DNA of 53,518 nucleotides from Triparma columacea (lineage: Eukaryota > Sar > Bolidophyceae > Parmales > Triparmaceae), in the NCBI GenBank assembly GCA_030267965.1, contig BRYA01000342.1:75256-128773 (forward strand), read 5' to 3'. The notes under the pieces were generated by a model. It did not search any database. It saw only the letters and a program-made list of their open reading frames with translations, and had not been told where the DNA came from. The position numbers were made by a program, and so were the translations under genes. This document shows positions 3,957 through 53,518 of this stretch, piece by piece (the first letter of the stretch is position 1; each line of letters opens with the position of its first letter).

Positions 3957-6900
3957 TCACTCGTCCATTCTTATGAACTGGTCGAAGCGACTGATGCAAA
4001 TCTCCTCTGCTTCCCGTTGGGCATTTTTAACGGCAACTTCACCCCCGTGACTCAAAAGCGCAGACTGAAGAGTTTCTTTCTCGAGCTGTTGCTGGGCGAG
4101 CAACGCAAGCAAATCCTCATGCTCCACCTCGAGCTCCTCGTACATGGCACGAAGTCCTTCCACCTCTTCCATCAATTCGGCCTCCTCTCCACCCCAGACT
4201 CCCACATTGCGTTCCTCTCGCAGCTTGACCTTCTCCATCCTTAGTAGGCCCTCCTTCTCCCTGTCCTCAACTTGCTGCAACCTCATCTCAGCAATCCTGC
4301 ATCTCTCGGTCAAAATCACAGTGCTCCTTTCCGTCTCTTCAAAGTTTGCAGATATCCTCTGCGTGAGATGGCCATTCTCAGTCCGAAGTGCCTCGTTGTC
4401 GTTCCTTAGTTTCTCGCAATCCATGCGTAGCTGTCCCAGTGCCTCGAACTCTCCTTCCATTCCTTTATCTCTCCCTTCCTTGACAATCTCGAGAGTAGTC
4501 TTGAGCTCACCAATCTCACCAAGAAGCTGCGCAATACGATTCTCGGCATCTCTCTTTCCTTCCTTCAACGCTATAAATTCAGCTTCACGTCGACCAGCGG
4601 CGATGCCTGTGGCTTCCCGCAGTTTGCGCTCAAAACCAGTAGCAGTCTTTCTTGCACTTGCCAAGAGTTGAGCCTTCTCATACCGCAACCTCTCGATCTC
4701 CTTCTCCCCGACAGCTTCGTCCGTCGTTAGAGCCTGATTGAGGATAGAAACCTCGGTTTCTCTGTCTTCTGCTAACCGCCGGAGCTCATCACACTCTTTC
4801 TCTAGTCTTTGAACATCCTTCCTCATGCCTCTCATTTCATTCACATGTGTGTTAAGTAGCGTTTCCCTTTCTGATTCGAGCGACCCAATTCTAGCCTTGA
4901 ATGAGACTAGTGCTTCGTTGTGTCTATCCTTAACCCGATCGATGGTCTCCTTCATGAAGGAGCCATCGGCCCTCAGTGATTCCACCTCCCTCTCCAACAT
5001 CCCGATTTTGAGCCTAGCTGACGCGAGCTGCTCCTCACAGAGACGGTTAAACTTCTTGGATTCTTCGAGCTCGAGCTGACTTGATGCAAAGTTGCTTTTC
5101 GTGCTTTCCAGCTCCCTGCGCGTCATGGTTCTCACTCGTTCCTCTTCCTCTTGACGAGCCATGAGAACCTTCTCTTGAACACCAGAAACGTTAGACTTAG
5201 CGAGGAATTCGAGGTCAGATTTCAGGGAATGCACTTCCTGCTCCGCAACCTTCTTTGCGCGAACATGCTCGGCGATTACATCGTCCATCTGGACGCGAAG
5301 AGACTTTGTCTCGTTGACGGTATCTTTTAGGTTTATGTTTTCAACCGTGATATTGTCAATAGTTGTCTCGAGAGAAGTAACCTTCGATGTCAACTTGGCC
5401 TTCTCAGCAAAAGCCTCTTCCAGCCTTATGTTCGCTTCAGCCATCCAATTATCTGATTTCATCGCGGCCTCCTTCAAACTAGCTATTTCCATGTTAAGGG
5501 CAGCAACGTCTCCTGATACATCTCCCTTCGTACTGAGATCCTCTTGCATCTTCGACATGTTCACGGTCGCCTCGGCCATCCAAGCATCAGCAGCCTTAGC
5601 ATTCTCAGTAAGAGATGCGATCTCGCTTGTCAAGGCAAGCTTATCAGCCTCCACAGCAGCTATCTTCTTTGTGAGTTCGGCCTTCTCCTTGCTCAAAGCA
5701 GCAACTTCCTCTGATACATCTCCCTTAGTACTGAGCTCCTCCTGCATCTTCGCCATGTTCACGGTCGCCTCAGCCATCCAAGCATCAGCAGCCTTAGCAT
5801 TCTCAGTAAGAGATGCGATCTCGCTTGTCAAGGCAAGCTTATCAGCCTCTACAGCTTCCTCTGATACATCTCCCTTAGTACTGAGCTCCTCCTGCATCTT
5901 CGACATGTTCACGTTCGCCTCGGCCATCCAAGCATCAGCAGCCTTGGCGTTCTCAGTAAGAGATGCGATCTCGCTTGTCAAGGCAAGCTTATCAGCCTCT
6001 ACTGAAGCTATCTTCGTTGCGAGTTCGGCCTTCTCCTTACTCAATGCAGCAACTTCCTCTGATACATCTCCCTTAGTACTGAGCTCCTCCTGCATCTTCG
6101 CCATGTTCACGTTCGCCTCAGCCATCCAAGCATCAGCAGCCTTGGCATTCTCAGTAAGAGATGCGATCTCGCTTGTCAAGGCAAGCTTATCAGCCTCTAC
6201 AGATGCTATCTTCGTTGTGAGTTCGGCCTTCTCCTTGCTCAATGCAGCAACTTCCTCTGATACATCTCCCTTAGTACTGAGCTCCTCTTGCATCTTCGCC
6301 ATGTTCACGTTCGCCTCGGCCATCCAAGCATCAGCAGCTTGGGCCGTCTTTATCATCTCTTCTCTTTCTCTTTCGAACCTTGCATTTTTCTCCTGAATTT
6401 CGACGGCTGTGCTTTCTGTCAGCCTCAATTTCTCTTCCAAGTCATCAATCACTCTGCGTAAGCTCTTGCTATCCTCTCCATTTAGGGTTGGAGAGGGAGA
6501 GGAGAGGTCAATGCTATCAAAGTGCTCGTGTTGAGAAGTAGGAGTTGAAATATTCGTAGATGGGTCACTAAGCTTTTCGTTAAGTTCCAAATTCTGACTT
6601 GTGAGCGCATTTATCTCGTCCTGGAGGGATGTCATTGTGATACTCGTCTCTTCTTTCTCCCTTTGGAGAGTTTCAATTGTACCAGTACTTTCGTTCATGT
6701 TGGCAAGAAGCTTTCTGTTTTCATCTGCGAGGTTCTTGAGATTCTTCTGTGCAGCAGTCATCCACTCGTCTGCTGACTTAGAGTTGGACACGAGTTTCGC
6801 TACCTTGACGTCAGCTTCCTCCTTCTCCTTGCGCAGAGATTCTAGTTCCATACTAAAAGACTCCTCCCCGCTTCCCTTGGCAAGGAGAGCTTCTTCGAGC

Positions 6901-9900
6901 CTCTTGTTCTCCTCCCCGAGGCTCTCGAGATTCTTCTGTGCGGCAGTCATCCACTCGTTTGCTGACTTCGAATTAGCTTTGAGCTCGGCAATCTGTTCTC
7001 CCTCTTCTGTCTGCATCTTGGCAACTAATTCTACGAAGTCTTCTTTCTCTTTTCTCAAATGAGCGATTTCGTCAAGCAGAGCCTTGTCGTTTATTCTCCC
7101 TTCGGCTTGGTTGGACCCACCAGAAAGGAGTCGCTCGTTGTCAGAAGTGAGCTGCTCGATTTGATCATTTGCAGCTTTCATCCTGGCGTCCGTTGACCTC
7201 GCATTGTCCTTCAGGCGATTGAATTCTATTCTCTCGTTCTCCGATAGAGTAGGCTCGCTCATCCCGAACCCATTTCTTACCCCTCCTCCTCCCTGGCTAA
7301 CAATGTCTTCCAACTCGATGTTCCTGGCGCCTAACTCTTCCATTTTCTCGTGTGCCATTTTCATCCATTTGTCCCCGTCCCTTAACTTCTCCTTCAGTTT
7401 TTCGATCTCCCCTTTTGAGTCCTCCGAACTGGTGACTGAAGTGGAAAGTTTGGCGTTGCGCAATTCGACCTCGAGGGCTTGGTACATTTTGTTCAGCCCG
7501 TCGATCTCGCCCTCTTTCGTAGAAAGGAGAGTGTTCAGATCTTGCACTTGCGTTGTCAGGGTCTCTTCGGCTCGCTTCAACCGAGCCTCCTCTTCTATGT
7601 TAGTGACGTTATCGCCCCCCACCACAACATTCAACTTTGTGCGAAGGCTTGAGTTGACCGCCTCGGCATCTGCCTTCAACTTAATGGTTCCCTCAAGATC
7701 CTTCTTCAACTCTTCGATCTCCTTCACCTGCTGTTGGATTAGTACATTCAAAGGGCTTTCTTCCTCGACGTTGGAAGATCCACTTGTTACCTCTTTAACA
7801 ATTCGTCTTCGAATTGTATCTGCAATGTCGAAGAACCACGTTCGCGTAAGCTGGGAGTCCAGCGAGGAAGAGGAGGATGTTGCATGTGTTTTTCTCGCCG
7901 CCTCTAGCGTGTTGGTGAAGTTAGAAATTCCAATTTTGGACTGAATAAGCTCCAAAATTGTTTGTCTTGTCCAACCAGCGTGTTCATCTTCTCCAAAATG
8001 CTCCAAGCACATCCCGAACAGGAGGATCACAAGTCCATTCTGCTGCACGTTGTCTGACTTGAGCAGCTTGAGAAGTGCAATCGAATCAGGTAAAGAGAGG
8101 AAAGAGTGAACGGCTGTGGGGCAACCCGAGCACCATTCGCACAGGAGGGTGAGAAGCGCAAGCGAAGTTTCGCCACTTTCGGGCGAAGAGGTTGAGGAAG
8201 AGAGATGTGTCACCAGTGTCTGCAGAAGCGAGGGAGGGATGCGTAGAAGAATTTCCTTCGCAGCCTCGCCTCCGCAATTTAAGAGGGCAAAGAGAGACTT
8301 TGAGGCACCGATGACGTTAATAGAGAAAGATGAGGAGGAAGAGGAGGAGGAGGCTGCATGGGTGTAAAGCGATTGAGAAAGATCCGCGATAATCTGCTTC
8401 ACAATAGGCTGCGTGATTTCGACTTCCATGCCGTCATCGTCCATCGGAGGCGGTGGGGGCGCGAGGGCGTGCATGATAAACGTCGATGATGTGTTGGGAG
8501 TCAACAGACAGCGGAGGGTGGTCACAGCCGAGGTGGAGGAGGAAGAGGGTGATATGGCAATGTTGAGAAGGGGGGTCGTTACGGTCGCCGCGATTTCGTC
8601 CTTGACGAGCTCAGGTGCCCCGTTGCATATGAAGGAGAGGACGTCGAGCGCGAGGTTTTGAATTTCGGGGGGTGGGGTGGGATCGTAGGATGAAGGGGAT
8701 TTGGGCGGGGTGAAGATTGCCAGTTTGTAAAGATTGTTGGCGAGAGGGGGGATGGAAACGAGGAACTGCTGGCGCTCAGACTTCGACTCGGAAGGGGCGT
8801 CTACGATAGACAACTTGATAGTCTGGAGTGAGAGAGAAATTATTTTCTCCTCGGACGGCTTGAGGGATGCACGAGGGATCTTTTCCGGGGCGGCGGTGCT
8901 GTTGTTCTGTCCCAGAAGGGCGGCTATGTGCGCATCATCGTCGTCTGTCATCCCTGGTCCGTCGACGGTCCGGTATACCCAGGCTGAGGCATTCGTAATG
9001 TCGAGAAGGGTGGGGAGGACGGCCATGGCAATCTTTGATTGGTAGAGGAGGGTCACCCCGTCATCCCGGGCAAGAAAATTAATGAGCTTGAGGGCATCTT
9101 GCACAACGATCGATCCACCGGTCAGCCCACTTTCGTGCTGCGCGGAGAACAAGAAGGAGCGAAGCGGAGGGAGGTTGCGTTAGTTTTTTTATTGCCGAAC
9201 TTCGCTTTTTGTCCATTCTCACCTCGATTATGGAAAAAAGGCGATCAAAGCCCTCCGAGAATGCCACCAGCTTGCGCACTACCTCTGATTTCTCCACCAT
9301 ACCAGTGAGGAGCAAAAGTACCTCGTTCCTGACAGACTCGTCGCAAATTGACTCGTCGGAAGTCAGAAGGTCTACGAGCCTGTTCAATCCCGATGGCGTC
9401 TCAATGACGGCCTGCTCGAAAACCTGGGACTTCAATTTGAAAAGGATGGTCAGAAATTGGACGCACAGTGTCCTGGAGGGGGGACGAAGTGTTGTGTTAG
9501 TGCTAATTGAATTGTCTTTAAACTCTTTTGCCCTTTCTCACCTTGCCACAACGTCCTGCACAACATTCTCCTTGTCATACATCATGTCCAGAAGAGATGC
9601 GACGATGCCCCTGTCCTGGTCCACTGCGTCACGAGTCAAGCGGAACGACAGGATCGAATCGGCAAGCTGCGAGGGGAATGAGGGGAGGGGTTAGTTTTAA
9701 GAAGAGAGATCATGCGGCAACATGCAGCAATGAAAGCTGTGAATCTCACCTTCGTCCTCGTGTGAACAGAGGTGGAGGGGGACGTGAGGAGCAAAATGAA
9801 GAGCTGGCAGATCTCGCTACTGCCCTCCAGGACAGCTGTGTCGTTCCTCGTTTTACAATTTGTGATCAGAGAGAGAGCATTGTCCATAAAATCGTACAGA

Positions 9901-40916: not shown

Positions 40917-41860
40917 AGTCGGCTCCTCTAGTTCTGTGGCATTTTATGGATCAATTGCAGGGGTACGAGAAGGCACGGCGAGTGTGGTTCGAAAATTGAG
41001 ACGTTACCTAAACAACAAAACCCATAACAAAGTTGTTTTGATTTTTATCGTTTTTCCACCTCCTTCCTTCAAACCCGCCTAAACCTTTGGGAAATTCTGG
41101 GGGCCGGGACGTGTAGGTAGGGTTACACAGTATCCGCCTACCCGGTTTTAGGATTCTGGGTAAGTATTTAAGGAATTCGAAAAGAAGTTGGCTAGGAAGG
41201 TTCCTACCTTAGCTCTAAATCTGTTGTGTGGATTTTCTAAATAACTGTACCTAAAGAACGACTACCACGATCTTCAGGAGCACTTACGCAAATTGTGGGT
41301 GAACTACGTCCATAAGTAGAAATACACACCCGCAAGGTCGTTGTTACTTTTTGAAACCCTTGAAGAACTGGGGCGAAAGCGAGTGTTTGGCAGGTAGGTT
41401 ACAGGGGAGGATCAACGAAAGAATATAGGCACCGGTGGGGTGGAGCAGTCGTAAAAGTGGCAAATGCCACCCACCACTCGCAGGTGAAGCGGATATCGCC
41501 TGTGCTGCAAAGGTAAGACAGTCGGAATCAAACAAGCTGCCCGGGGAGGGCAGGATTTGGAAGGGAGCTTGCGTGATGAGAGACAGCAGAGAGAAGGCGA
41601 GGATCGAGAATCGATGTGTTGGAGGAGCGAAGCTAGTGCTTGCAGCAACGCGAGTTGCTGAAAGGGCTGCGTTTGGAGATTGGGAAGTGGATTGGACGTC
41701 TTTGCTTGCAGAGACATAGTTTGGGTCGTCACAAAGATACGAGTGTGGGCTGGTTAACGTCAATCTACTACTCCTGTACTAACCCCTTCTTCTTCCGTCT
41801 TTTTGTTCTTCATCGCTTAGATCCTCCCCCATTCTTCGCTTCTCTCATAACCCTTGCAGC
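40917..41860. other. Intergenic region with one uncertain minus-strand ORF
   Basis: An ORF on the minus strand at 41763-41344 could encode 139 residues with a hydrophobic stretch (FSILAFSLLSLITQ) and ends in FFKGFKK. A plus-strand ORF of similar length overlaps it, so coding status is unclear. Its 3' end is duplicated at 42162-42285. A pyrimidine tract and CAG just before the plus-strand ATG at 41861 look like a splice acceptor, so the next gene may have a 5' UTR exon in this region. Confidence 0.35.
41335..41455. repeat. Dispersed duplicate, copy 1 (about 120 bp)
   Basis: Shares gtcgttgttactttttgaaa, aggatcaacgaaagaatata and ggggtggag in the same order and spacing with 42162-42285, at roughly 80% identity by eye. 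On the minus strand both copies end ...TTCAAGGGTTTCAAAAAGTAA, a terminal exon-like sequence preceded by a CAG. Confidence 0.85.
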
Positions 41861-44800
41861 ATGAAGACCGGGGTTGACCTCGAGGCCCAGGAGAAGCCGC
41901 CGTCAACGAGTCCGGAGGGACCTCAACGTGTTGCCGTAAAAATTCTCACCCCCTTCTCCCCCCCCCGATCGCTCCATCTCAGCAGATCTTGGCGACGGTA
42001 ACAACGACAAGAAGCAGACCAAGGTGAGGGAGCAGCACCGCGAGAAGCGTGTGACACGAGCAGTTTTATGTTCATCGATTGTTCTTCTGGTCTTGGGGGT
42101 GCTAACGTCTTCATTGCCATACGAACTCACCCCCCCTTCCCCTCCCTCCCCCTCCTCCTTTGTTAGGTCGTCGTTACTTTTTGAAACCCTTGAAGGACTG
42201 GGGCTGCAAGGACGTGTGCTGAGCAGGTAGGTCGCAGGAGAGGATCAACGGAAGAATATAGGCGCTAGAGGGGTGGAGGAGACGTAGATGGACAGAAAGT
42301 GGGAAGAAAAAGACCCTGAGAAGAGGCGGCAGCGATGGAACCTGTTTTGTGTGGGTGTGTTGGATTCTCGGAAGGGGCCTAAAAGCCGGCTTGAGTGATC
42401 GAGGGCGACATCTATCTCAAACATGGGACGATACCGGCAGTATTCTCACTCTCACCAAACGTACCCATGCCCCCACAGATTCTAAATCCCGCGAGAGTTG
42501 CGCTCACAGCACATGGACACGGAAAACGATTCCCGAGGAGGGAGAGAAGACCGTGTGAGGGAGTCTCATACACTTCAGGTTGACGCTTCGATGTCCGATA
42601 ACTGCAATTCAGTACACGATCTAGGCCATGAGAGGCAAGTTACTCCGTCTTTGGCAATTGAAAGACCTCGTGGGGACGCTGCTGGGCAAGGTGAGAGAGT
42701 CGTGTCAGGGGTTTGTAGGGGTGGAAACCCTTGATATTCTTAAGGGAAAAAGGACGACATGTCGGATCGCGCGTGAAAATCCTTTTCATTTTGACTAATA
42801 AACACCATTATCGCCATTACCGCAGACTCTGAAAATGGACATGAGGACGCTGAACAAGGTGAGTTGTGCGTTCAGCGCCAGAAGATAGAAAGGACAATTT
42901 AATACTTTAGGAGAGAGCAGAAGAGTCGCGGGAGGACGCGTCGATGCTTTGTATTTGTTTCTCACTTTTGCAATGTGTTGTGTTGTCCCCTTCGCAGTCT
43001 CTAAATCTAAAAGCTCTCATGAGGACGCTGGACAAGAGCAAGGTAAGTGCGATTCAGGGAGTAGCATGGGGGGAGACCCTTGTAGTTTTTCTCACCGCCT
43101 GCGTGCGGAACGCGCGGAGCTGTTCGCGGAGGGCCTGGCCCACGGCGTCGAGCTCGACGGGCGGCGGCCGCGGCGCATGCGTGTGCGCGCCGGTCTGCGG
43201 CGACTGCATGGGACGCTTCTGCGGCGACTGCATGGGACGCTTCTGCGGCGACCGCATGGGACGCTTCTGCGGCGACCGCATGGGACGCTTCTGCGGCGAC
43301 CGCATGGGTTCCGTCTCCGGCGACCGCGTGGGATGCTTGATATGCTACACAGAAACGAGGAGCACTCGTTGAAATCTTTTCATTTTGACCAACAACCACC
43401 ATATCGCCATTACCGCAGACTCTGAAAATGGTCATGAGGACGCTGGACGAGGTGAGTTGTGCGTTGAGAGCCGGAAGAGAGAAGGGACAATTTAATACTC
43501 TAGGAGAGAGCGGGAGAGTCGCGGGAGGGCGTGTTGAAACTTTGTATTTTTGCTCACCGCCTGCGTGCGGAACGTGTGGAGCCGTTCGCGAAGGGCCTGG
43601 CCCTCGGCCTCGAGCTCGATGGGCGGCAGCTGCGGCGCATGCGCGCGCGCGCCGGTCTACGGTGACCGCATGGGATCCATCTCCAGCGACCGCGTGGGTT
43701 CCGTCTGCGGCGACCGCATGGGGCGCTTCTGCGGCGACCGCATGGGATCCATCTCCAGCGACCGTATGGGTTCCGTCTGCGGCGACCGCATGGGGCGCTT
43801 CAACAGCTTCTGCGGCGACCGCATGGGTTCCGTCTCCGGCGACCGTGTGGTGCGCTTGATATGCTACACAGAAACGAGGAGCACGCATTGATATCTTTCT
43901 TCATGTTAACTAACAAACACCATAATCGCCATTACCGCAGACTCTAAAAACGGCCATGAGGACGCTGAACGAGGTGAGTTGTGCGTTCAGCGCCAGAAGA
44001 GAGAAAGGACATTTTGATACTCTAGGAGAGAGTGGAGAGTCGCGGGAGGACGCGTTGACACTTTTGTAGTTTTTTCTCACTTTCTTTTGCAAAATTGTTG
44101 TCCTCTTCACAGTCTCTAAATCTAAAAGCTCTCACGAGGATGCTGGAGGAGACCGAGGTAAGTTCGATTCAGGGGGCTGAAGGGGCGGAGATCCTTGATA
44201 TGCTACACAGAAACGAGGAGCACTCGTTGATATCTCTTCATGATAACTAACAATTGCCATAATCGCCATTACCGCAGACTCTGAAAATGGTCACGAGGAC
44301 GGCGGAAGAGGTGAGTTGTGCGTTGAGAGGCGGAAAAGAAAAACGAATTTTAATACTCTAGGGGAGAGCGGGAGAGTCGCAGGAGGGAGCGTTGAAACTT
44401 TGTAGTTTTTTCTCACCGCCTGCGTGCGGAATGTGCGGAGCTGTTCGCGGATGGCCTGGCCGTCGGCGTTGAGCTTGGCGGGCTGTGGCCGCAGCGCAAG
44501 CGCCCGCGTTCCGGTCTGCGGCGACCTCATGGGAACCGTCTCCGGCGATCACGTGGGTTCCGTCTGCAGCGACCGCATGGGGCGCTTCTGCGGCGACCCC
44601 ATGGGTTCCGTCTCTGGCAACCGCGTGGGGAGCTTGATATGCTACATGGAATCGAGGAGCAAGCGTGGAAATCTTTTTCATTTTGACTAACAATTGCCAT
44701 AATCGCCATTACCACAGACTCTGAAATTGGTCACGAGGACGCCGGAAGAGGTGAGTTGTGAGTTGAGAGCCAAAAGACAGAGAGGACAATTTAATACTCT

Positions 44801-47800
44801 AGGAGAGAGCGGGAGATTCGCGGGAGGACGCATTGAAGCTTTGTAATTTTTTCTCACTTTAACCCTTCACCAAAAATTACAACCCTCCAAAACCTCAGAA
44901 ATTTCTGGCCATCCTCATTTTCAACCTGGATTTGAAATTTTCAACGCCGAAATTTCCCACGATCCCTCAAACAGTGGAATAGCAGGCGAGAACAATCTAA
45001 GCGATATACCGCCTGCTGTCGGGTGCGCGATTCCTGGCCAAACGCCAGTTGACCTTGCGACTGTCAGCCACGCCACTGCCGCTCAGTCCATGACATTAGA
45101 TCCTGACAACACCATTAGGAATGAAGATCCCCCGCAGTCCCTTTCTAGCCCCGATCACGCTTCTTCCACTACGCAAAGACAAGTTGATATCGATTACACA
45201 GCACTTGGACCCAAGCAAGGCAAACTTGTGAAGCTTCTTGAGGAGAGAGGAGCAGTTGAAGGCCTCATCGACACTTCCACCGGCGACGATGTGAAAGCTT
45301 TAGGGCTTGCTGGTGTTTTCCACGACGAGCGCGACAAGATCATCGACTTTCTCCTCACCGATTGTGAGCAGGGCAAGTTCCGAAGGAAGACCCTCCAGGA
45401 GTATGACGAAAAGGAAGGAGTCATTCACAGACTCGTCTACTGGCAGCACTACGACAGGGGGAATAAGTTTGTTGAATTTCTGCTCGACGTCAGGGTCGTT
45501 GATCCCGATGAATCAACGAGCACTACGGAGTTGGCACCCCTTGATGAGGACGATCTTTCTGATGAGGCAACTGCGATGCTTGTCGAGATTCTAGCCTCAA
45601 GAAATACCAAGACTGTCAAACGAGGTGTCATTAAGGGCAAGCTCAGCTTCACTGACTTTGAGTTTGGACAAACTGCAGTCACCATGGTGGGAACTCTCAA
45701 GGCAGAGGAGAGGGTAACAGAGATGAAATCAGAAGTTGTCGTTCGCACAAACAAAAGCTCAAAGAGTGCGCGCCCTACTTTCAAGAGTGCGCGCCCTACT
45801 TTCAAGAGTGTGCGCCCTACTTTCAAGAGTGCGCGTCCTACTTTCAAGAGTGTGATATCCACGACATCTAGTGTTGAAGGCAGGAACATTGGCAGGACCA
45901 AGAAGGGAGACATCAAGGCTGCGTATGCAGCAGTAAAGGGTATTGTGGAGGAGGTTGAGAAGAAGTTCAGACAGCCTGGTGTCATTGATGAGAGGAGGAA
46001 AAGACACTTTGTGGAGGAGATCATGCCGAGGGCACCGCCTCTGACAATAGAGGAGGAGGCAATGTTGGAGAGGGTTGGGAGGCTAGAGAAGGAACTTCAC
46101 ACAAAGGGGAAAAGAGTCAAGGGGACACTGAAGGAGGGCATGGACAAGTTCCGGTGGAGAAAGGGAGACAATGTGTGGGGAGCCTTTGGGGTCACTGTGG
46201 ACAAGTCAGCAAAGGGTGTATTGACAGAGCAATTTCTGCTTGACACATATAAGCGGTCAGAGGAGCACTTCAAAAATAATGGGAACTTACCAAGGGTGAT
46301 CAGGAATGGCGTCGGCGAAACTAGAAGCTTGCATCAACATGTTGGTTTGAAGCTCCCTGCCATCACNNNCCTCAGTAAGGAAGGATTTGTGCTAGCAGAG
46401 TCTACAGGTGTCTACTTCTTCAATGAGATTGCTCCAAATGTCTGTAGGGTGACACGTATTCAGACAGTTGATCTGCATTTCCAAGGCCTTCAAAAGACAC
46501 TGATGGACAATACTATTGACTACCTTACAAGGAGACAGCTACTTCAGGCCAACAGGTTGCACGAGAAATTTAGGAGGAATGGGAAGATGGTTGATGCTGA
46601 GGTCAGGGGGGCCTTGGTGGAGAGGATGAGAGAGGGGGTCAAGCTGGAGAAGGACCAGGAGAAGGTCTTCAAGGACCTGGGTGAACTCTTTGATGGGGAG
46701 GAAGGAGGGTGGAAGCCTCTCAAGTCACCTTATGAAGGAGTGAAGATGGAGATCAAATACAAGCAGCAGGAGAAAGAAAAAAAGACACTCACTTTTGGTA
46801 GAGCTGAGTGTATCACCGACTGCTCAGCCGAGGAAGCAGCCGCTTGGTTCTTTGAGTACTGCAGTAGAGAAAGAATGGCATTGAGCCAAGAGGAAGGGAA
46901 CCCTGCAAGGTTGGAGATAAGGAAATGGAAAGAGGAAAGGACCAATGAGAAGCTTTTTGCTATAATCAAGAAACTCCCATACCCTTTTCACAAACGAGAG
47001 TTTGTGATGAGATATATATGTCAAAAGGGACGCCAAGATGACACCATGTATGTAGGATTTGTCCCAGCTAAAGATCAGGTGGACTATGGAAGAAACCTTG
47101 GAAAGCTTGTGCGAGCAACAACAAGTGGCATTCTCACTGCCAAGAATATTGAGGACCATAATGGTATTCTTCAGTGTAAACTTACATTGACCCAATTTAT
47201 GGACACAGGGGGGTATATTCCAGTCAAAATTGTCGACAGCTCTACTCCACGAGTACTAAGTACGATAGCAGTGCTCAGGGACTCCTTCAAGCAGGACGAA
47301 GAGGTTGATAAAGCTGCACGAGCCTCTCTTGCCAACATCATCAAGAATGAGCATCAAGATTATACTGATGAGGAGAAGGATGCAATCAGGAAGGGGAAGG
47401 AGTTCTATGAGAAGTGCAAGGTGGAGGAAAACTTTGATGAACTGACGAGTCCTGATAAGAGGGTCAAGATGAAGCTAGTTCATGTTGTTGATAAGAGGGT
47501 CAAGATGAAGCTAGTTCATGTTGATGGGGAAAGCAGTGGGACTTGTTTTGCCACTACTGTGGTAGATGCTAGTGTGGAGGAGTGTGCTGCACACGAGTAC
47601 AATTTAGACTCAAGATCATTCCGTAAAACTTCAAAGAAGCGAGGGATCACTGAGTACCACATCAAAAAAACCAATGCCCATACCTTCTATTTCATCACAA
47701 CAAGGGACCTTGGTCTCCCTGGTTTTTCTCCACGTGATGGGAGGAGTAAAATTATCTGGTTCAAGCAAGATGACGGCAAAGTCATCATTGATGTTGCAGA

Positions 47801-50800
47801 CACAGAGGAGGTTCATGAATACTTTCCAGTGAAAGCTGGCAATGTTTTACTGAAGGCACACACAGTATGGGTGTTTGAGCCACTTGACCCTATTGGAGGT
47901 GTGCCACAAACATCAGTGACTTTTACATCAAAAGTAGACCTTGGTGGTGTATTCTTCTCTTCCGTCATGAACAAGATTACGCCTAGGTTTCTTGCAAAAG
48001 CCTCAGACTTGAGGAAGAAGTTTGACAAGAGCAAAGAGATTGACGCCTTCAAGAGGCAGCAGATCATTGCAAAGTTTAAGGAGATTGCAATTGAGGGGGC
48101 ATCAGGGATTGAAAGTCACTTAGACGAGATTGAAGGAGCTCAAGAGATCAGTAGTGGGTTGTCTGGAACGACAATGATTAAGGCAGAGAAGGGGATGGGA
48201 TGGGGAAAGACTTCAATAACTGTGAGAGCATCCCACAAGGAAGTTGCAGCATTCTTCTGGGGCCTTCATATTGGAGTTGACTCCCAGCTCAAACTTCACA
48301 GAGTCAACAACAGGACAATTATAATCACTGTTGAACACAAAGGGCAATTTACTGCTGCTAGGTTTGGTGAGATAAACCAGAATAAGACGGATGTTGAAGT
48401 GATGACCAGACATAAGGCTGCAAGCAAAAAGAGTGTAATCAAACACCTGAGCATGGCAACTGATGCTGCTTACTACTTTGATAATCTAATCAAGAGCACT
48501 GAAGCAGGGGAACAGGATGGGAGGAGATTTGGAGAGCAGCTGATGGAGAGAGCAAAGAAAAGGAAAGTTGGGGACAGTAAAGTAGAGGTCGTGAGGGACT
48601 TTATTGCTGCCAATATGGCACTAAAAGAGATTTCAGAGCAGCATGGTTTCATGAGAACTATGCTCTATGCTGTGGTCATGAACAAATTTAAAAGAAGAGC
48701 AACAAATGAGGGAGAAGATAACAGTGAGGAGGAAGCCAGAGGCTGGGAGATTGGGAGTACAATGACTGCAGTCATGTTGACCACAGCAACTGCTGCTCAT
48801 GCTGTAGATGAGTGGGCCCATCAATTCACTGAAGTGCAGGAGGTTATGAATAAACAAGCGTGGTTAAGGCCCATGCTTGAGGAGATTGTTAAGAAACTAT
48901 TTATGAAGTCTACCTTAGGCTTGAAGGCAAGGGTCACTGTTGGTGCTGCCACAAGCATGCTTGATTTGGTGACCGATGTGTATGTGACGAACATGTTTTG
49001 GAGAAATAAGAAGTATGGGTACTTTAATGCTTCTCTGGCAAGTTTGGTAGTGTCAATTGGGCTTCAGATGTTTTGTGTTTGGGGGCAGAATAGGAAGTTG
49101 GGGATAATGAGGGTGTTGCGGGAGTGGATTCCAATCTTGCTTGGGTACAAGCCTGCTGTTGATGCATACAGGGTAGCAACTGGATCAAAGCAAGAGATTG
49201 GGGCTGCACTTGACCCAATGATGGAGATGACAATTATCAAAGGGTATGAGATGTTTGCTGAGGCAATCCCTGGAGTCATCATCCAACTTATGGCTATAGT
49301 AACAAGTGACAAAGATGGTGGAACTTCAGCATGGCTTTCAGTTGCAGTGTCAGCAATTACAACAGGCTTTGCCTCTGCAACAATAAGTTATGACTGGGAC
49401 ACAGACCCTCGTAAGAGAGAAAAGGCACCTGACTTCTATGGGTATGTACCAGCAAAAGCAAGCAAGAGAACAGTAGTGTTTGTGTCAATGATGCTGTTCA
49501 CTGCAGGAATGCTTCTAATAAGGTGTACAACAATAGTTCTTCTTGGGTTGATGGGAAGTAGTTGGGCCTTTCTCTATATTGGTATTGACCTTGGTTTGTA
49601 CATTTTGGTCAAGATATTGAGGGGAGACTTTTGGTACTGGGTGCCAGCAGGGGGTAAGACAGAGATGGTGAATAGTATTCTATTCAGAGTGTTAGTAAAG
49701 ATCATTGTAGACTTTACTTCAATGGTGCACTTAAGACATCCAAACGAAGCTGGGGGAGCCTATTGGTTGTTTGGTCTTTTGTTGACAATGGTAAGTCTAC
49801 CAGTGACAATATTTATATATTTATTTTCTCCTTATGTAGATGACAACCCAATTGATATTGCATCATTTATAGTGAAGTATATCATACCAATAACTACTAT
49901 ATGTATTGCTGTTTTCTTTTTTAACATTGAGAGGAAATACTTGCACACCTTCTGGAGTACACAGAGGTCAAAAGATATGTCAATGGCATATTTCCTAGAA
50001 GGGAAAAATGATGCAATAAGATTTTCAGTCTTTAAAAGGTCAAAACATCATTGGGTCTCAATTGAAGGAGAAATTAAGGAATGGGTTGGCTTAAACTGGG
50101 CTAAATGGGAAGAGGACAAGCCAGAGTGGTTTACTGATGTCATGAAGGCTAAAGTACCTGTAGACTTTCTTCCATCAGATGGAGATGCAAGAAGGAGAGA
50201 GAGTGTTAGGAGAGCAAGTGTTGATGCTGAAGCTGAGGGTGGTCTAGCAGGTGCTTTGAGAGCAAATATGAGGAGAGCAAGTGTTGGCATGGACAACAGA
50301 GGCGATCTAATTGCTTCACATGCTGTTAATGATACTACACAAGACTATGCAGGTTTAGATCCTAAACAAATAGGAAAGTTGTTGGGTGAGCAACTGTTGG
50401 TTGCATTAAGTTTTAGGACCAAAGGAATGACAAAGGAGGGGGCAGTGAGGTTATTTATAGGGTCAAACTATGTTCTCAGACAGGCTGCAGAGAAGTACGC
50501 CTTTGTCACACCAGTGCTTGGCGCTGTTGTCAAGAACAAGCTGTGCAAGTTGAGGAAGGTAGAGGGTAAGGCTGTAGAGCTGGGAGAGAAGGAAGGAAGG
50601 GAGATCGGAGAGTCTCTAGCAAGGAGCTTGGCAATTAATACTCAGCCAGTTGCCGCAGTTGATGCCTTCATCTTGAATTTCCCCGCTCTACAGGAGTTTG
50701 ATGAGGAGTATGAATGGTTCAGACCTATGCTTGAGACGATTAGCTACAGGCTTTTGGAGGAAGTTCCTTGGGGGTTGAAGGCGAGAGTGACTGTTGGGGC

Positions 50801-52214
50801 CATCACTAGTATGGCAGATTTGCTGACTGATGTGTATGTGACGTACATGTTTTGGGATGATAAGAAGTATGGGTACTTTAAGGCTTCTTTGGCATGTTTA
50901 ACAGTATCAATTGGGATACAAATGTTTACTGTTTGGGCACAGAACAGAAACTTGGGGATGTTGAGGGTGATGAGGGAATGGTTTCCTATTTTGATTGGGT
51001 TTAAGCCTGCAGTTGATGCTTACAGGGTAGCAACAGGTGGAAAGCAAGAGGCTGGAAAAGCAATAGATGCTCTGACAGAGATGAATCTCATGAAAGGGAT
51101 TGAGATGTTTTCTGAAGCCATACCTGGAGTGATTATCCAACTCATGGCTATTGCAATGAATGATGGAAAGGTTGCAGATGCAGCTTGGGTCTCACTTTCA
51201 GTCTCAGCATTGACAACAGGCTTTGCATCTGCAACTATAAGTTATGACTTTGACACTAACCCAGTGAAGAGAGAGCAAGTGCCTGACTTTTATGGTTATG
51301 TGCCTTCAAATCCTACAAAAAGGTCTATCATATTTGTTACAATGATGTTCTTTAGTGCAGGTATGCTTGTGATAAGGTGCATGACAATGGTTGTGTTAGG
51401 ACTTCTTGGTGGTAGATGGGTCTCTCTCTATATTTGTGCTGATATGCTTCTGTACTTGTTTGTGAAGGTCATAAGAGGAGACTTTTGGTCTTGGATGCCT
51501 CTTGGTGGCAATGCAGAAGTTGTGAATAGTATTGTCAACAGAGTGTTGGTAAAAGTTGTGACAGACTTTACATCAATTGTGCAATTGAGGCATCCTAATG
51601 AGGTTGGAGGGTTGTATTGGATGTTTGGATTTGTATTGACAATGGGAAGTCTTCCAGTAGCTATAATCCTAGCTGAAAGGGGAGATGTTGCAGACGAGGT
51701 GCTTAGATTTGCATGGAAAGTAGTTGGAATATTTACACCATGTGTAGTTGTGTTGTTTGCTGTATTTTTCTTTTGCATTGAGAAAAAATACTGGGGCACC
51801 TTCTACAGCTTGCAAAGGGGTAAGGACTTAACGGTGAAGAATTTCAGAGAGGGTTCAGATGCTGGTAAAGCAAGTTACACTTTTCATATTTCTAAGCATC
51901 ATTGGAAGGCAAATGAAGAGGAAGTCAAAGCTTGGGTTGAGGCAAATTGGGATAGATGGGTGGACGAGAAGCCAGAGTGGTTTGATCAAGCAACAAGAGC
52001 TAGTGTGCCAGTTGAATACATTCCAAAAACTGGTGATGCTAGAAGGAGAGAGAGTGTGAAGAGAGCAAGTGTTGCTGCTGAAGCTGAGGGTGGGCTAGTA
52101 GGTGCATTGAGAACAAGTATTAGGAGAGCAAGTGTTGGAGGCGCTGATGGTGGGGATATTATAGGGGTTGGGGGTGGGAATACTGAAGTAAGCAGTGTAG
52201 TGCCGCTAAGATGA
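41861..52214 (+). CDS. Giant multi-START-like protein with two XK-related-like membrane modules and a 5' mini-exon array
   Basis: Eleven exons were inferred: 41861-41927, 41986-42023, 42510-42690, seven mini-exons (42826-42858, 42998-43042, 43419-43451, 43941-43973, 44113-44157, 44278-44310, 44718-44750) and 44899-52214, totalling about 2,618 residues with phases adding up. Exons 1-3 are the least certain: donor 1 is GTGTTG and acceptor 3 has alternatives. Downstream of the mini-exons come a K-S-A-R-P-T-F repeat, then two or three START/Bet-v1-like lipid-binding regions (nt about 46740-47320, 47440-48060, partial 48150-48480), then two copies of a membrane module of about eight helices (nt 48905-49950 and 50765-51810). 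Features such as DLVTDVYVTNMFW and FAEAIPGVIIQLMAI resemble XK-related scramblase-type proteins; this match is moderate. Possible role: lipid sensing or transfer at a membrane. The long exon is AT-richer than neighbouring genes. Two codons are obscured by N bases. Confidence 0.75.
42162..42285. repeat. Dispersed duplicate, copy 2, inside intron 2 of the giant gene
   Basis: Second copy of the block at 41335. It retains the minus-strand F-K-G-F-K-K-stop end but the frame further in is interrupted, suggesting a relic. Confidence 0.8.
43096..43344. repeat. GC-rich minisatellite block 1 in a mini-exon intron
   Basis: Begins gcgtgcggaacgcgcgg and contains five repeats of a ctgcggcgaccgcatgggac-like 21- to 24-bp unit. 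Flanked by ctcac on the left and cttgatatgctacacag on the right, as in the other two blocks. Confidence 0.9.
43557..43863. repeat. GC-rich minisatellite block 2
   Basis: Homologous to block 1 with more units and two unit types (tctgcggcgaccgcatgg and atctccagcgaccg). In the frame that is open in block 1 on the minus strand it has a stop and a one-base shift. Confidence 0.9.
44417..44641. repeat. GC-rich minisatellite block 3
   Basis: Homologous to blocks 1 and 2, shorter and more diverged; also carries a stop in the minus-strand frame that is open in block 1. Confidence 0.9.
45762..45845 (+). repeat. 21-bp tandem coding repeat (K-S-A-R-P-T-F)
   Basis: Four copies of the 21-bp unit start at 45762, 45783, 45804 and 45825. 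They encode a basic heptapeptide in the N-terminal third of the giant protein. Confidence 0.97.
46367..46369. other. Run of three N in the assembly
   Basis: Three undetermined bases inside the long exon of the giant gene. The frame is kept, leaving two unknown residues; the true gap length may differ. Confidence 1.
47454..47525 (+). repeat. 36-bp tandem coding duplication at the start of the second START-like region
   Basis: Two copies of a 36-bp unit, encoding D-K-R-V-K-M-K-L-V-H-V plus V or D, start at 47454 and 47490. The second copy continues into the domain. Confidence 0.97.
48497..52214 (+). repeat. Internal duplication of the membrane module (about 1.85 kb, diverged)
   Basis: Module 1 (about 48497-50310) and module 2 (about 50353-52190) align along their length: FGEQL/LGEQL with a following helical pre-region, GLKARVTVGA, DVYVT-MFW, KPAVDAYRVATG, MF-EAIPGVIIQLMAI, TTGFASATISYD, PDFYGYVP, RGDFW-W, LRHPNE-GG, and a tail with R-R-R-E-S-V-[RK]-R-A-S-V and R-R-A-S-V-G. 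Perhaps two-thirds of residues are identical by eye. Confidence 0.92.
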
Positions 52215-52318: not shown

Positions 52319-52632
52319 AGTGTTATATTGGTTTGTGAGTATTTAGGAAGTGTAGTAGATGTATTGTGAGAGTGTTAAAGTGGTTTGTGAGTATAATGGA
52401 AGTATAGTAGATATGTATGAAATGTTGGAGAGTTTTGGAAGTGTTATAGTGGTTTGTGAGTATAAAGGAAGTGTAGTAGATGTGTATGAAATTTTGGAGA
52501 GTTTTGGAAGTGTTATAGTGATTTGTGAGTGTTGTGGTAGTGTTATAAATATGTATGAAGATTTGAAGAGTTGTGGAAGTGTTATAGTGTTTTGTGGGTA
52601 TAATGGAAATGTAGTGGATGTCTATGGGGATA
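52319..52632 (+). repeat. 69-bp degenerate tandem repeat
   Basis: About four units with the core gtgttatagtggtttgtgag and gtgtagtagatgtgtatgaa, spaced 69 bp. An open frame (52359-52706) follows the period (23 residues, G-S-V-I-V-V-C-E-Y) but looks like a by-product of the repeat. Confidence 0.85.
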
Positions 52633-52675
52633 AATTAAAGGAAGGAGAGTGTGGTTGTAGAAAGGAGTTATGGGT

Positions 52676-52985
52676 TGAGAGAAGAAGAGAGGAGGGTATA
52701 AGGTGAAATAATGTGTGTAAGTGTAGGAGATGTGTATGTAGATGAATTAAATGAGGGTGAGTGTAGATTTAGAGAGGAGTGAGAGAAGTTAAGGAGAGAG
52801 AGTAGAAGAGAGAAGGGTATAAGGTGGAATGATGTGTATAAGTGTAGAAGATGTGTATGAAGATAAATAAAAGGAGGTTGAGTGTAGTTGTGAAGAGGAG
52901 TGAAAGGAATGAAAGAGGAGAGTAGAAGAGAGGAGGGTATGAGGTGATATGGTGTGTGTGTGTGTGTGTGTTTGTAAGTGTGTTT
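52676..52985 (+). repeat. About 125-bp degenerate tandem repeat
   Basis: Three diverged units, each with gagtagaagagagNagggtat, then atgtgtNtaagtgtag and gtgtatgNagat. The third ends in a (gt)n microsatellite at about 52952-52971. Confidence 0.8.
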
Positions 52986-53009
52986 GAAGGTGTGTATGTT
53001 TTCATCTGG

Positions 53010-53470
53010 TAGTGAAAAGGTGTGTAGTGAGTAAAGGGTGTGTAGAGAGTAAAGGGTGTGTAGTGAGTAAAGGGTGTGTAGTGAGTAAAGGGTGTGTGGT
53101 GAGTAAAGGGTGTGTAGAAAGTAAAGGGTGTGTAGTGAGTAAAGGGTGTGTGGTGAGTAAAGGGTGTATAGTGAGTAAAGTAAAGTAAAGTAAAGGGTGT
53201 GTAGTGAGTAAAGGGTGTGTAGTGAGTAAAGGGTGTGTAGTGAGTAAAGGGTGTGTGATAAGTAAAGGGTGTGTAGAGAGTAAAGGGTGTGTAGTGAGTA
53301 AAGGGTGTGTGGTGAATAAAGGGTGTGTAGAGAGTAAAGGGTGTGTAGAGAGTAAAGGGTGTGTAGTGAGTAAAGGGTGTGTAGTGAGTAAAGGGTGTGT
53401 GGTGAGTAAAGGGTGTGTAGTGAGTAAAGGGTGTGTAGTGAGTGAGTAAAGGGTGTGTAGTGAGTAAAGG
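53010..53470 (+). repeat. 18-bp satellite
   Basis: About 25 copies of an 18-bp unit, gtgtgtagtgagtaaagg, with point variants (gtgtgtggtgagtaaagg, gtgtgtagagagtaaagg) and one insertion of agtaa units near 53180. The open frames through it are periodic and not gene-like. Confidence 0.97.
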
Positions 53471-53518
53471 GTGTAAAGGGTGTAAAGGGTGTAAAGGGTG
53501 TAAAGGGTGTAAAGGGTG
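53471..53518 (+). repeat. 9-bp repeat at the window end
   Basis: About five copies of gtgtaaagg, apparently derived from the 18-bp satellite, run off the end of the window. Confidence 0.97.

Follow-up and report, generated by a model that had tools for sequence, protein, structure and literature searches.

Triparma is a tiny silica-scaled marine alga of the Parmales (Bolidophyceae). The T. columacea DNA analysed here, hereafter called the window, comprises 53,518 nucleotides and constitutes the final 53.5 kb (75256-128773 of 128773) of its contig, in a genome of 37.85 Mb and 789 contigs. Towards the end of this contig lies a gene in which seven very short exons are placed between a first exon and an exceptionally long last exon. 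Its features are the following:

42513..42690, plus strand: first exon, type 1 (MDTENDSRGG...RGDAAGQ), ending after codon base 1
42826..42858, plus strand: mini-exon 1, 33 nt, DSENGHEDAEQ
42998..43042, plus strand: mini-exon 2, 45 nt, VSKSKSSHEDAGQEQ
43043..43418, plus strand: 376-nt long intron carrying a GC-rich block and, at 43194-43338, a 24-bp minisatellite
43419..43451, plus strand: mini-exon 3, 33 nt, DSENGHEDAGR
43452..43940, plus strand: 489-nt long intron carrying a GC-rich block and, at 43655-43850, a 24-bp minisatellite
43941..43973, plus strand: mini-exon 4, 33 nt, DSKNGHEDAER
44113..44157, plus strand: mini-exon 5, 45 nt, VSKSKSSHEDAGGDR
44278..44310, plus strand: mini-exon 6, 33 nt, DSENGHEDGGR
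44311..44717, plus strand: 407-nt long intron carrying a GC-rich block and, at 44508-44635, a 24-bp minisatellite
44718..44750, plus strand: mini-exon 7, 33 nt, DSEIGHEDAGR
44899..52214, plus strand: last exon, type A, predicted giant START-like/XK-related protein (EISGHPH...), 7.3-kb open frame
52371..53518, plus strand: subtelomeric tandem repeats of 69-, 121-, 18- and finally 9-bp AAAGGGTGT units, base 53518 being the contig end

The first exon begins with an ATG at 42513, preceded by an in-frame TAA ten codons upstream, and its donor follows position 42690; its 3' end resembles that of a mini-exon. When the first exon, the seven mini-exons and the last exon, which contains one short N run near 46367, were spliced in silico, a single frame of 2582 aa plus a stop was obtained, with phase 1 at every junction. 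The array accounts for 85 aa of this model, and symmetric micro-exons therefore do not make up most of the coding sequence. The preliminary description of the array was borne out in its order of units (33-45-33-33-45-33-33 nt) and their coordinates, in the CAG acceptors, GTGAGT/GTAAGT donors and common phase 1-1 frame of all seven units, and in the EISGH opening of the final exon at 44899. The similar introns of the two 33-45 pairs (units 1-2 and 4-5), given there as 140 nt, are each exactly 139 nt long.

Several other features accompany the gene. Two direct repeats about 830 bp apart (41335-41453 and 42165-42286) lie upstream of the first exon, and the segment at 41850-42120 matches another locus, L020, at 92%. 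The last exon contains a 21-bp coding tandem repeat (4.3 copies, 45762-45852) that reads SARPTFK and varies in copy number in relatives such as P0029. Far from the array, a 1740-aa open frame on the minus strand (3957-9179) includes tandem repeats with periods of 150, 198 and 348 bp at 5513-6342. Antisense coding within the array was also considered, as a 297-aa minus-strand frame at 43007-43900 scored 30.6 against a cut-off of 30.9 for Gp5_trimer_C. It was taken as a by-product of the 24-bp minisatellites, whose period corresponds to eight codons, so that frames stay open and an 8-residue repeat is mimicked.

The mini-exons of the window have many counterparts in the genome. Allowing at most three mismatches, the 33-nt unit pattern gave 251 genome matches and the 45-nt pattern 151, compared with none for the backwards control of either, and the unit patterns thus exceed chance. 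Exon length was then left free (20-50 nt for the first type, 30-60 nt for the second) in patterns that fixed only intron bases. Genome-wide, the first-type pattern yielded 232 matches, with an exon of 33 nt in 100 of 100 among the matches listed, while the second-type pattern yielded 52, of which 51 enclosed 45 nt and one 39 nt.

Individual arrays were compared in 23 loci (the window, L003, L004, L006 and L010-L028). Nineteen of these (L010-L028) were picked for carrying the pattern, so that the presence of arrays in them is uninformative on array frequency. Overlapping loci (L001, L002, L005, L007 and L008), the window tail (L009), pieces of 200-301 bases (L029-L068) and L069 were excluded from the counts. 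The free-length patterns found 88 exons in the 23 loci, 61 of 33 nt and 25 of 45 nt, the remainder being one of 36 nt, which is a shifted acceptor match, and one of 178 nt, which is a first exon. A similarity-based scan recovered 114 units (84 of 33 nt, 27 of 45 nt and three of 39 nt), as well as first-exon pieces, and all of these unit lengths are multiples of three. The acceptor is CAG in 113 units and TAG in one, the donor is GTGAGT in 85 and GTAAGT in 29, and the last exonic base is a G in all 114. Array size ranges from 0 units (L022) to 11, counts that are lower bounds in L003, L004, L006 and L017, which reach the ends of the analysed DNA, and that may be wrong in places, given what the available text of the genome paper describes as a short-read Platanus assembly (PMC10328945). 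The suggestion made from the window, of symmetric mini-exons in one coding frame that are duplicated together with their introns and differ in number from one copy of the gene to another, is thus supported, the 23 loci spanning 0 to 11 units.

The coding nature of the units was evaluated in several ways. None of the 111 units of 33 or 45 nt contains an in-frame stop, which is weak evidence alone because one other frame is equally open. For the 33-nt units, pN/pS in the coding frame was 0.48, the two shifted frames giving 1.19 and 0.95, and for the 45-nt units it was 0.60, the shifted frames giving 1.63 and 0.60. In a column-permutation test the third-position excess had p values of 0.098 and 0.19, and a variant-level selection test on the units was not significant in any setting. 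Purifying selection on single mini-exon codons is thus not claimed, since both tests fall short of significance despite the low in-frame pN/pS.

A deposited automatic gene model, TrCOL_g13771 (P0011), includes the sequence ...ADSENGHEDAGQ-VSKSSHKDARL-EISGHPH..., and its residues 37-929 match contig C161 at 100%. In the genome, it corresponds to two 33-nt units, the first ending at GTGAGT and the next bounded by CAG and GTGAGT, followed by a last exon that is preceded by CAG; the model thus joins unit to unit to last exon at exactly the proposed CAG/GTGAGT sites. Its 5' end is incomplete, as the model begins inside an intron. According to the accessible part of the genome paper, the T. columacea annotation used protein hints only, without RNA-seq (PMC10328945), and P0011 is for this reason a prediction rather than a transcript. 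Joined mini-exon peptides occur in P0011 but in none of the other T. columacea proteins recovered from the databases, and no exact match was obtained when deposited proteins were compared with the studied loci. The hits of two protein searches (15 and 11) included no cDNA-like sequence with joined mini-exons, several of them being unspliced genomic read-throughs. Unspliced relatives of exon 1 (P0031, P0032 and P0034-P0042; one cluster, 10 member sequences) are present in public JGI and ENA sets. That P0011 stands alone in this respect also shows that automatic annotation of parmalean genomes misses most 5' parts of the genes of this family.

It could be argued from these data that the units are a non-coding subtelomeric repeat that merely resembles exons, as the searches returned no cDNA, the codon-level tests fell short of significance and the introns are likewise repeated and conserved. 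Such a repeat would not be expected to preserve exon length among the matches listed, to keep splice sites at 113-114 of 114 units, or to continue one frame from the first exon through the array into a 7-kb frame, and the independent model P0011 uses the same junctions. This reading is considered extremely improbable.

The exons that flank the arrays are also variable, with two first-exon types (1 and 2) and two last-exon types (A and B) in the family. The type-1 first exon was aligned in 12 loci, where it has the same length modulo 3, is always open and always fits phase 1; the ATG is at the window's position in 10 of the 12, and internal indels are only of 3 nt. Genome-wide, 40 copies of it were scored of 81 candidates. 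The type-2 first exon (MADSEKDFTILLKQRDKEIAGLK...) was found in seven loci, phase 1 being a condition of that scan, and in an eighth, L023, which looks broken, as its first exon contains a stop. Genome-wide, this type gave 104 matches, 60 of them at 110 bits or more. Last exon A (EISGHPH...) is present in eight loci, and last exon B, whose beginning is a mini-exon running on into the body (DSENGHEDAVGLVADSNN...), in 11. Both last-exon types form long open frames, and pN/pS is 0.46 for A (8 loci) and 0.42 for B (9 loci). As for their combinations, 1+A and 2+B each occur in eight of the 23 loci and 1+B in two (L019 and L022), and in the remaining five one end is missing from the analysed DNA or untyped. 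Both first-exon types end in ...GD[AV]G[QR], like the 3' end of a mini-exon, which suggests a shared origin of the splice module of first exons and mini-exons. With every junction in phase 1, the frame is preserved however many first exons, mini-exon cassettes and last exons are combined and in whatever order.

Arrays are dispensable for an open frame, as judged from L022, which lacks units, and from related array-free genes. Of the 104 type-2 matches, 27 sit in an open frame of at least 1000 aa, and in these relatives the type-2 first-exon domain is in one frame with the body. Family members on C503, C219, C389 and C342 also match an array-free protein, P0014, along its length, and residues 467-1515 of P0014 match contig C378 at 100%. 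A further irregular locus, L014 (contig C2), is probably a broken recombinant: at oriented bases 5304-5464, in the middle of the array, a last-exon-like fragment precedes one that resembles the 3' part of exon 1, and the downstream frame is short.

The distances to contig ends, on both strands, indicate that the genes run towards these ends. On the minus strand, no match of the type-2 first exon is farther than 14.5 kb from contig base 1. On the plus strand, all 20 contigs checked for length end no more than 11.1 kb downstream of the first exon of the gene. At least four TTAGGG repeats are found at the array-side end of 11 contigs (C2, C29, C52, C34 at its right end, C70 at its right end, C394, C277, C313, C285, C433 and C83). 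The CCCTAA-bearing tip of C201, the contig of locus L022, consists of two telomere repeats and a variant, with the 9-bp ACACCCTTT repeat directly inside them, and this is the repeat that ends the window. Of 20 left contig tips, 5 are telomeric, 1 has the 9-bp repeat, 7 read N and 7 are neither. The plain TTAGGG pattern was more productive than a junction-anchored telomere pattern, which gave 5 sites only. The main text of the genome paper makes no mention of telomeres, chromosomes or introns (PMC10328945). The array of the window is not a single locus but one of many in a large subtelomeric family, whose first and last exons are interchangeable.

One of these contigs, C70, of about 75 kb, carries TTAGGG at both ends (matches at 4-63 on the minus strand and 75420-75461 on the plus strand) and may represent an entire chromosome of very small size. 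Among the telomere matches, the first 100 listed correspond to 16 contig sites, on contigs numbered up to 70 of 789, and extrapolation from them indicates that the genome may consist of many small chromosomes.

The telomeric tips also bear on whether the arrays, and their position at contig ends, were made by a short-read assembler in a repeat family. The Platanus assembly is of the short-read kind, contigs can break in repeats, and seven of the 20 left tips read N. An artefact of this kind is nevertheless very unlikely, because the units differ from one another (70 distinct sequences among the 84 units of 33 nt), the TTAGGG tips at the array's end are genuine on 11 contigs, and C70 has them at both of its ends.

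The relationships among units fit an exchange of blocks between loci, with some local duplication. When units were compared together with 70 nt of flank, the best match was in another locus for 90 of 99 units and in the same locus for nine (8 of 99 under a slightly different treatment), whereas perfect mixing of the pool would give 4.5 same-locus matches. Adjacent units had adjacent best partners in one other locus in 14 of 92 cases; when units were shuffled within loci 2000 times, such cases averaged 4.9 and never exceeded 12. Examples of such blocks are units 6-9 of L010, which match units 2-5 of L012, and units 1-2 of the window, which match units 1-2 of L011. The flanking exons behave similarly, as the nearest locus differs between exon 1 and the last exon in six of the eight type 1+A loci, a comparison whose L025 row is distorted by N runs or bad alignment. 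A correlation nonetheless persists between the distances at exon 1 and those at the last exon (Spearman 0.59, the pairs not being independent), which implies that the exchange is partial. It had been proposed that copy number could change by unequal crossing-over. The change in number is upheld, with a shift of emphasis: exchange between chromosome ends appears at least as important as unequal crossing-over within an array, given that the best relative lies elsewhere for 90 of 99 units.

Unlike the exons, the introns between units drift in length. All three length classes are represented among them (33, 32 and 27 of 92), and the position of an intronic landmark some 41 nt in, found in 78 of 84, is 42 nt in 41 cases, 41 nt in 33 and 40 nt in four. 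The GC-rich block is present in 42 of 44 long introns and in none of 48 short ones, and 40 genome-wide matches of it were scored of 241 candidates. The block was considered as a possible mobile element, but a search of 43000-45000 of the window gave no inverted repeats, and the block is read instead as a variant form of intron that recombination has spread. A viral link is likewise unsupported, with 0 exact matches of the mini-exon core in viral_contigs.

The products of the family are very large and probably lipid-binding membrane proteins. In the giant frame of the window, the XK-related family PF09815 is matched in two stretches at 35.3 bits (Pfam cut-off 24.8). A structure model of residues 600-1150 (46644-48296), with a mean pLDDT of 65.9, has the CERT START domain as its top Foldseek match (E 3.7e-9, TM 0.71 by target length). 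The Pfam START family PF01852 matched seven of 13 aligned family members, 1.3e-5 at best, and left the window's own sequence unmatched; a PDB search by sequence gave 0 hits. Some members of the XK-related (XKR) group have lipid scramblase activity. START domains are among the domains most enriched in Parmales, according to the part of the genome paper available (PMC10328945). The mini-exon peptides have a very different composition, with D, S and E at 43%, H at 7%, leucine at 0.4% and a net charge of about -14 per 100 aa, and they probably provide a hydrophilic, acidic and presumably disordered N-terminal segment.

Taken together, these data make it probable that the window gene belongs to a subtelomeric family with the plan [first exon]-[0 to 11 mini-exons]-[giant START-like/XK-related last exon], in which the mini-exons encode an acidic segment and the arrays are reshuffled between chromosome ends. 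In the mechanism proposed, all mini-exons would normally be spliced in and would form an acidic segment between the first-exon head and the START/XK body. Arrays would grow, shrink and swap at chromosome ends by homologous (ectopic) recombination or gene conversion, for which the near-identical introns would serve as substrate. This would yield a set of proteins with a common body and an N-terminal segment that differs in length and sequence.

The inclusion of all mini-exons has been weighed against their use as an isoform generator, in which they would be skipped alternatively to give many N-terminal isoforms per gene, as in schistosome micro-exon genes (MEGs) or Dscam. All the units are of phase 1-1, so that any subset keeps the frame, and small symmetric exons are reported to be skipped in MEGs in the accessible portions of two studies (PMC4350168, PMC4015677). 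Nevertheless, donors of the form GTRAGT in 114 of 114 units leave no visibly weak class of unit, the variety is already present between loci, and neither protein search recovered a spliced cDNA. Full inclusion seems most likely from the uniformly strong splice sites and the kept frame, and a role in isoform production is considered unlikely.

A more serious alternative concerns the meaning of the variation. The exons may be real and spliced, with the length and order of the array selectively neutral and the segment a tolerated spacer. Arrays of 0 to 11 units among loci with open last exons, weak codon-level constraint and the existence of array-free relatives would all be expected of such a by-product. 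What it explains less well is that essentially every copy seen retains its exon length, its splice sites and an open frame despite drifting introns, and that the same two unit classes recur everywhere. Neutrality is accordingly regarded as quite possible, if somewhat short of an even chance. A more far-reaching version of the reshuffled family, in which modules reassort at many chromosome ends, strain-specific N-terminal repertoires are carried on giant lipid-binding membrane proteins and exon skipping adds isoforms, is tentative and rather doubtful as a whole.

If true, the probable reading, that of subtelomeric genes whose arrays are exchanged between chromosome ends, would mean that exon shuffling has been caught in the act in a lineage sister to diatoms, where short symmetric exons would travel as cassettes, introns included, among many chromosome ends. 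Ordinary data would suffice to test how quickly exon arrays turn over from strain to strain and whether a family of this kind owes its spread to equal intron phase.

No description of such mini-exon arrays in Parmales was found in the papers searched, and subtelomeres are mentioned in none of those listed. The comparison with known systems draws on other organisms. The VSG genes of trypanosomes are a subtelomeric variant gene family. The Triparma genes resemble them as a multicopy family at chromosome ends diversified by recombination; unlike the VSG host, T. columacea is a free-living alga. In Dscam, one exon is chosen per cluster. Dscam-type clusters, which are mentioned in PMC4015677, share with the Triparma arrays the clustering of duplicated exons. 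However, there is no sign of mutual exclusion in Triparma, where including all units keeps one frame.

Schistosome MEGs, as presented in the available sections of two papers (PMC4350168, PMC4015677), are similar in having many very short symmetric exons in one frame, so that skipping keeps the frame. MEGs encode small proteins, most of them secreted, and transcripts document the skipping. In contrast, the Triparma array forms the N-terminal portion of a much larger protein (about 2,600 aa), its units are mutually homologous, and it is known from genome sequence alone.

The closest precedent found is that of the Tetrahymena LRR genes, which, in the portion of the study available, have tandem arrays of exons of exactly 90 bp that encode LRR units, with phase 2 introns and the involvement of a LINE-like element (PMC6564038). 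The youngest of these array genes are concentrated in subtelomeric and pericentromeric regions, with recombination proposed as the motor (PMC6564038). The Triparma lineage differs in being an alga sister to diatoms, and no retroelement was seen in it in a check that covered the GC-rich intron block. As far as the Tetrahymena account goes, both systems display tandem short symmetric exons of fixed length, a single intron phase, many genes and a subtelomeric bias. The Triparma units are nevertheless distinct in their lengths of 33, 39 or 45 nt, their phase 1, their acidic character and their lack of LRRs, and also in being located between interchangeable first exons and a giant last exon.
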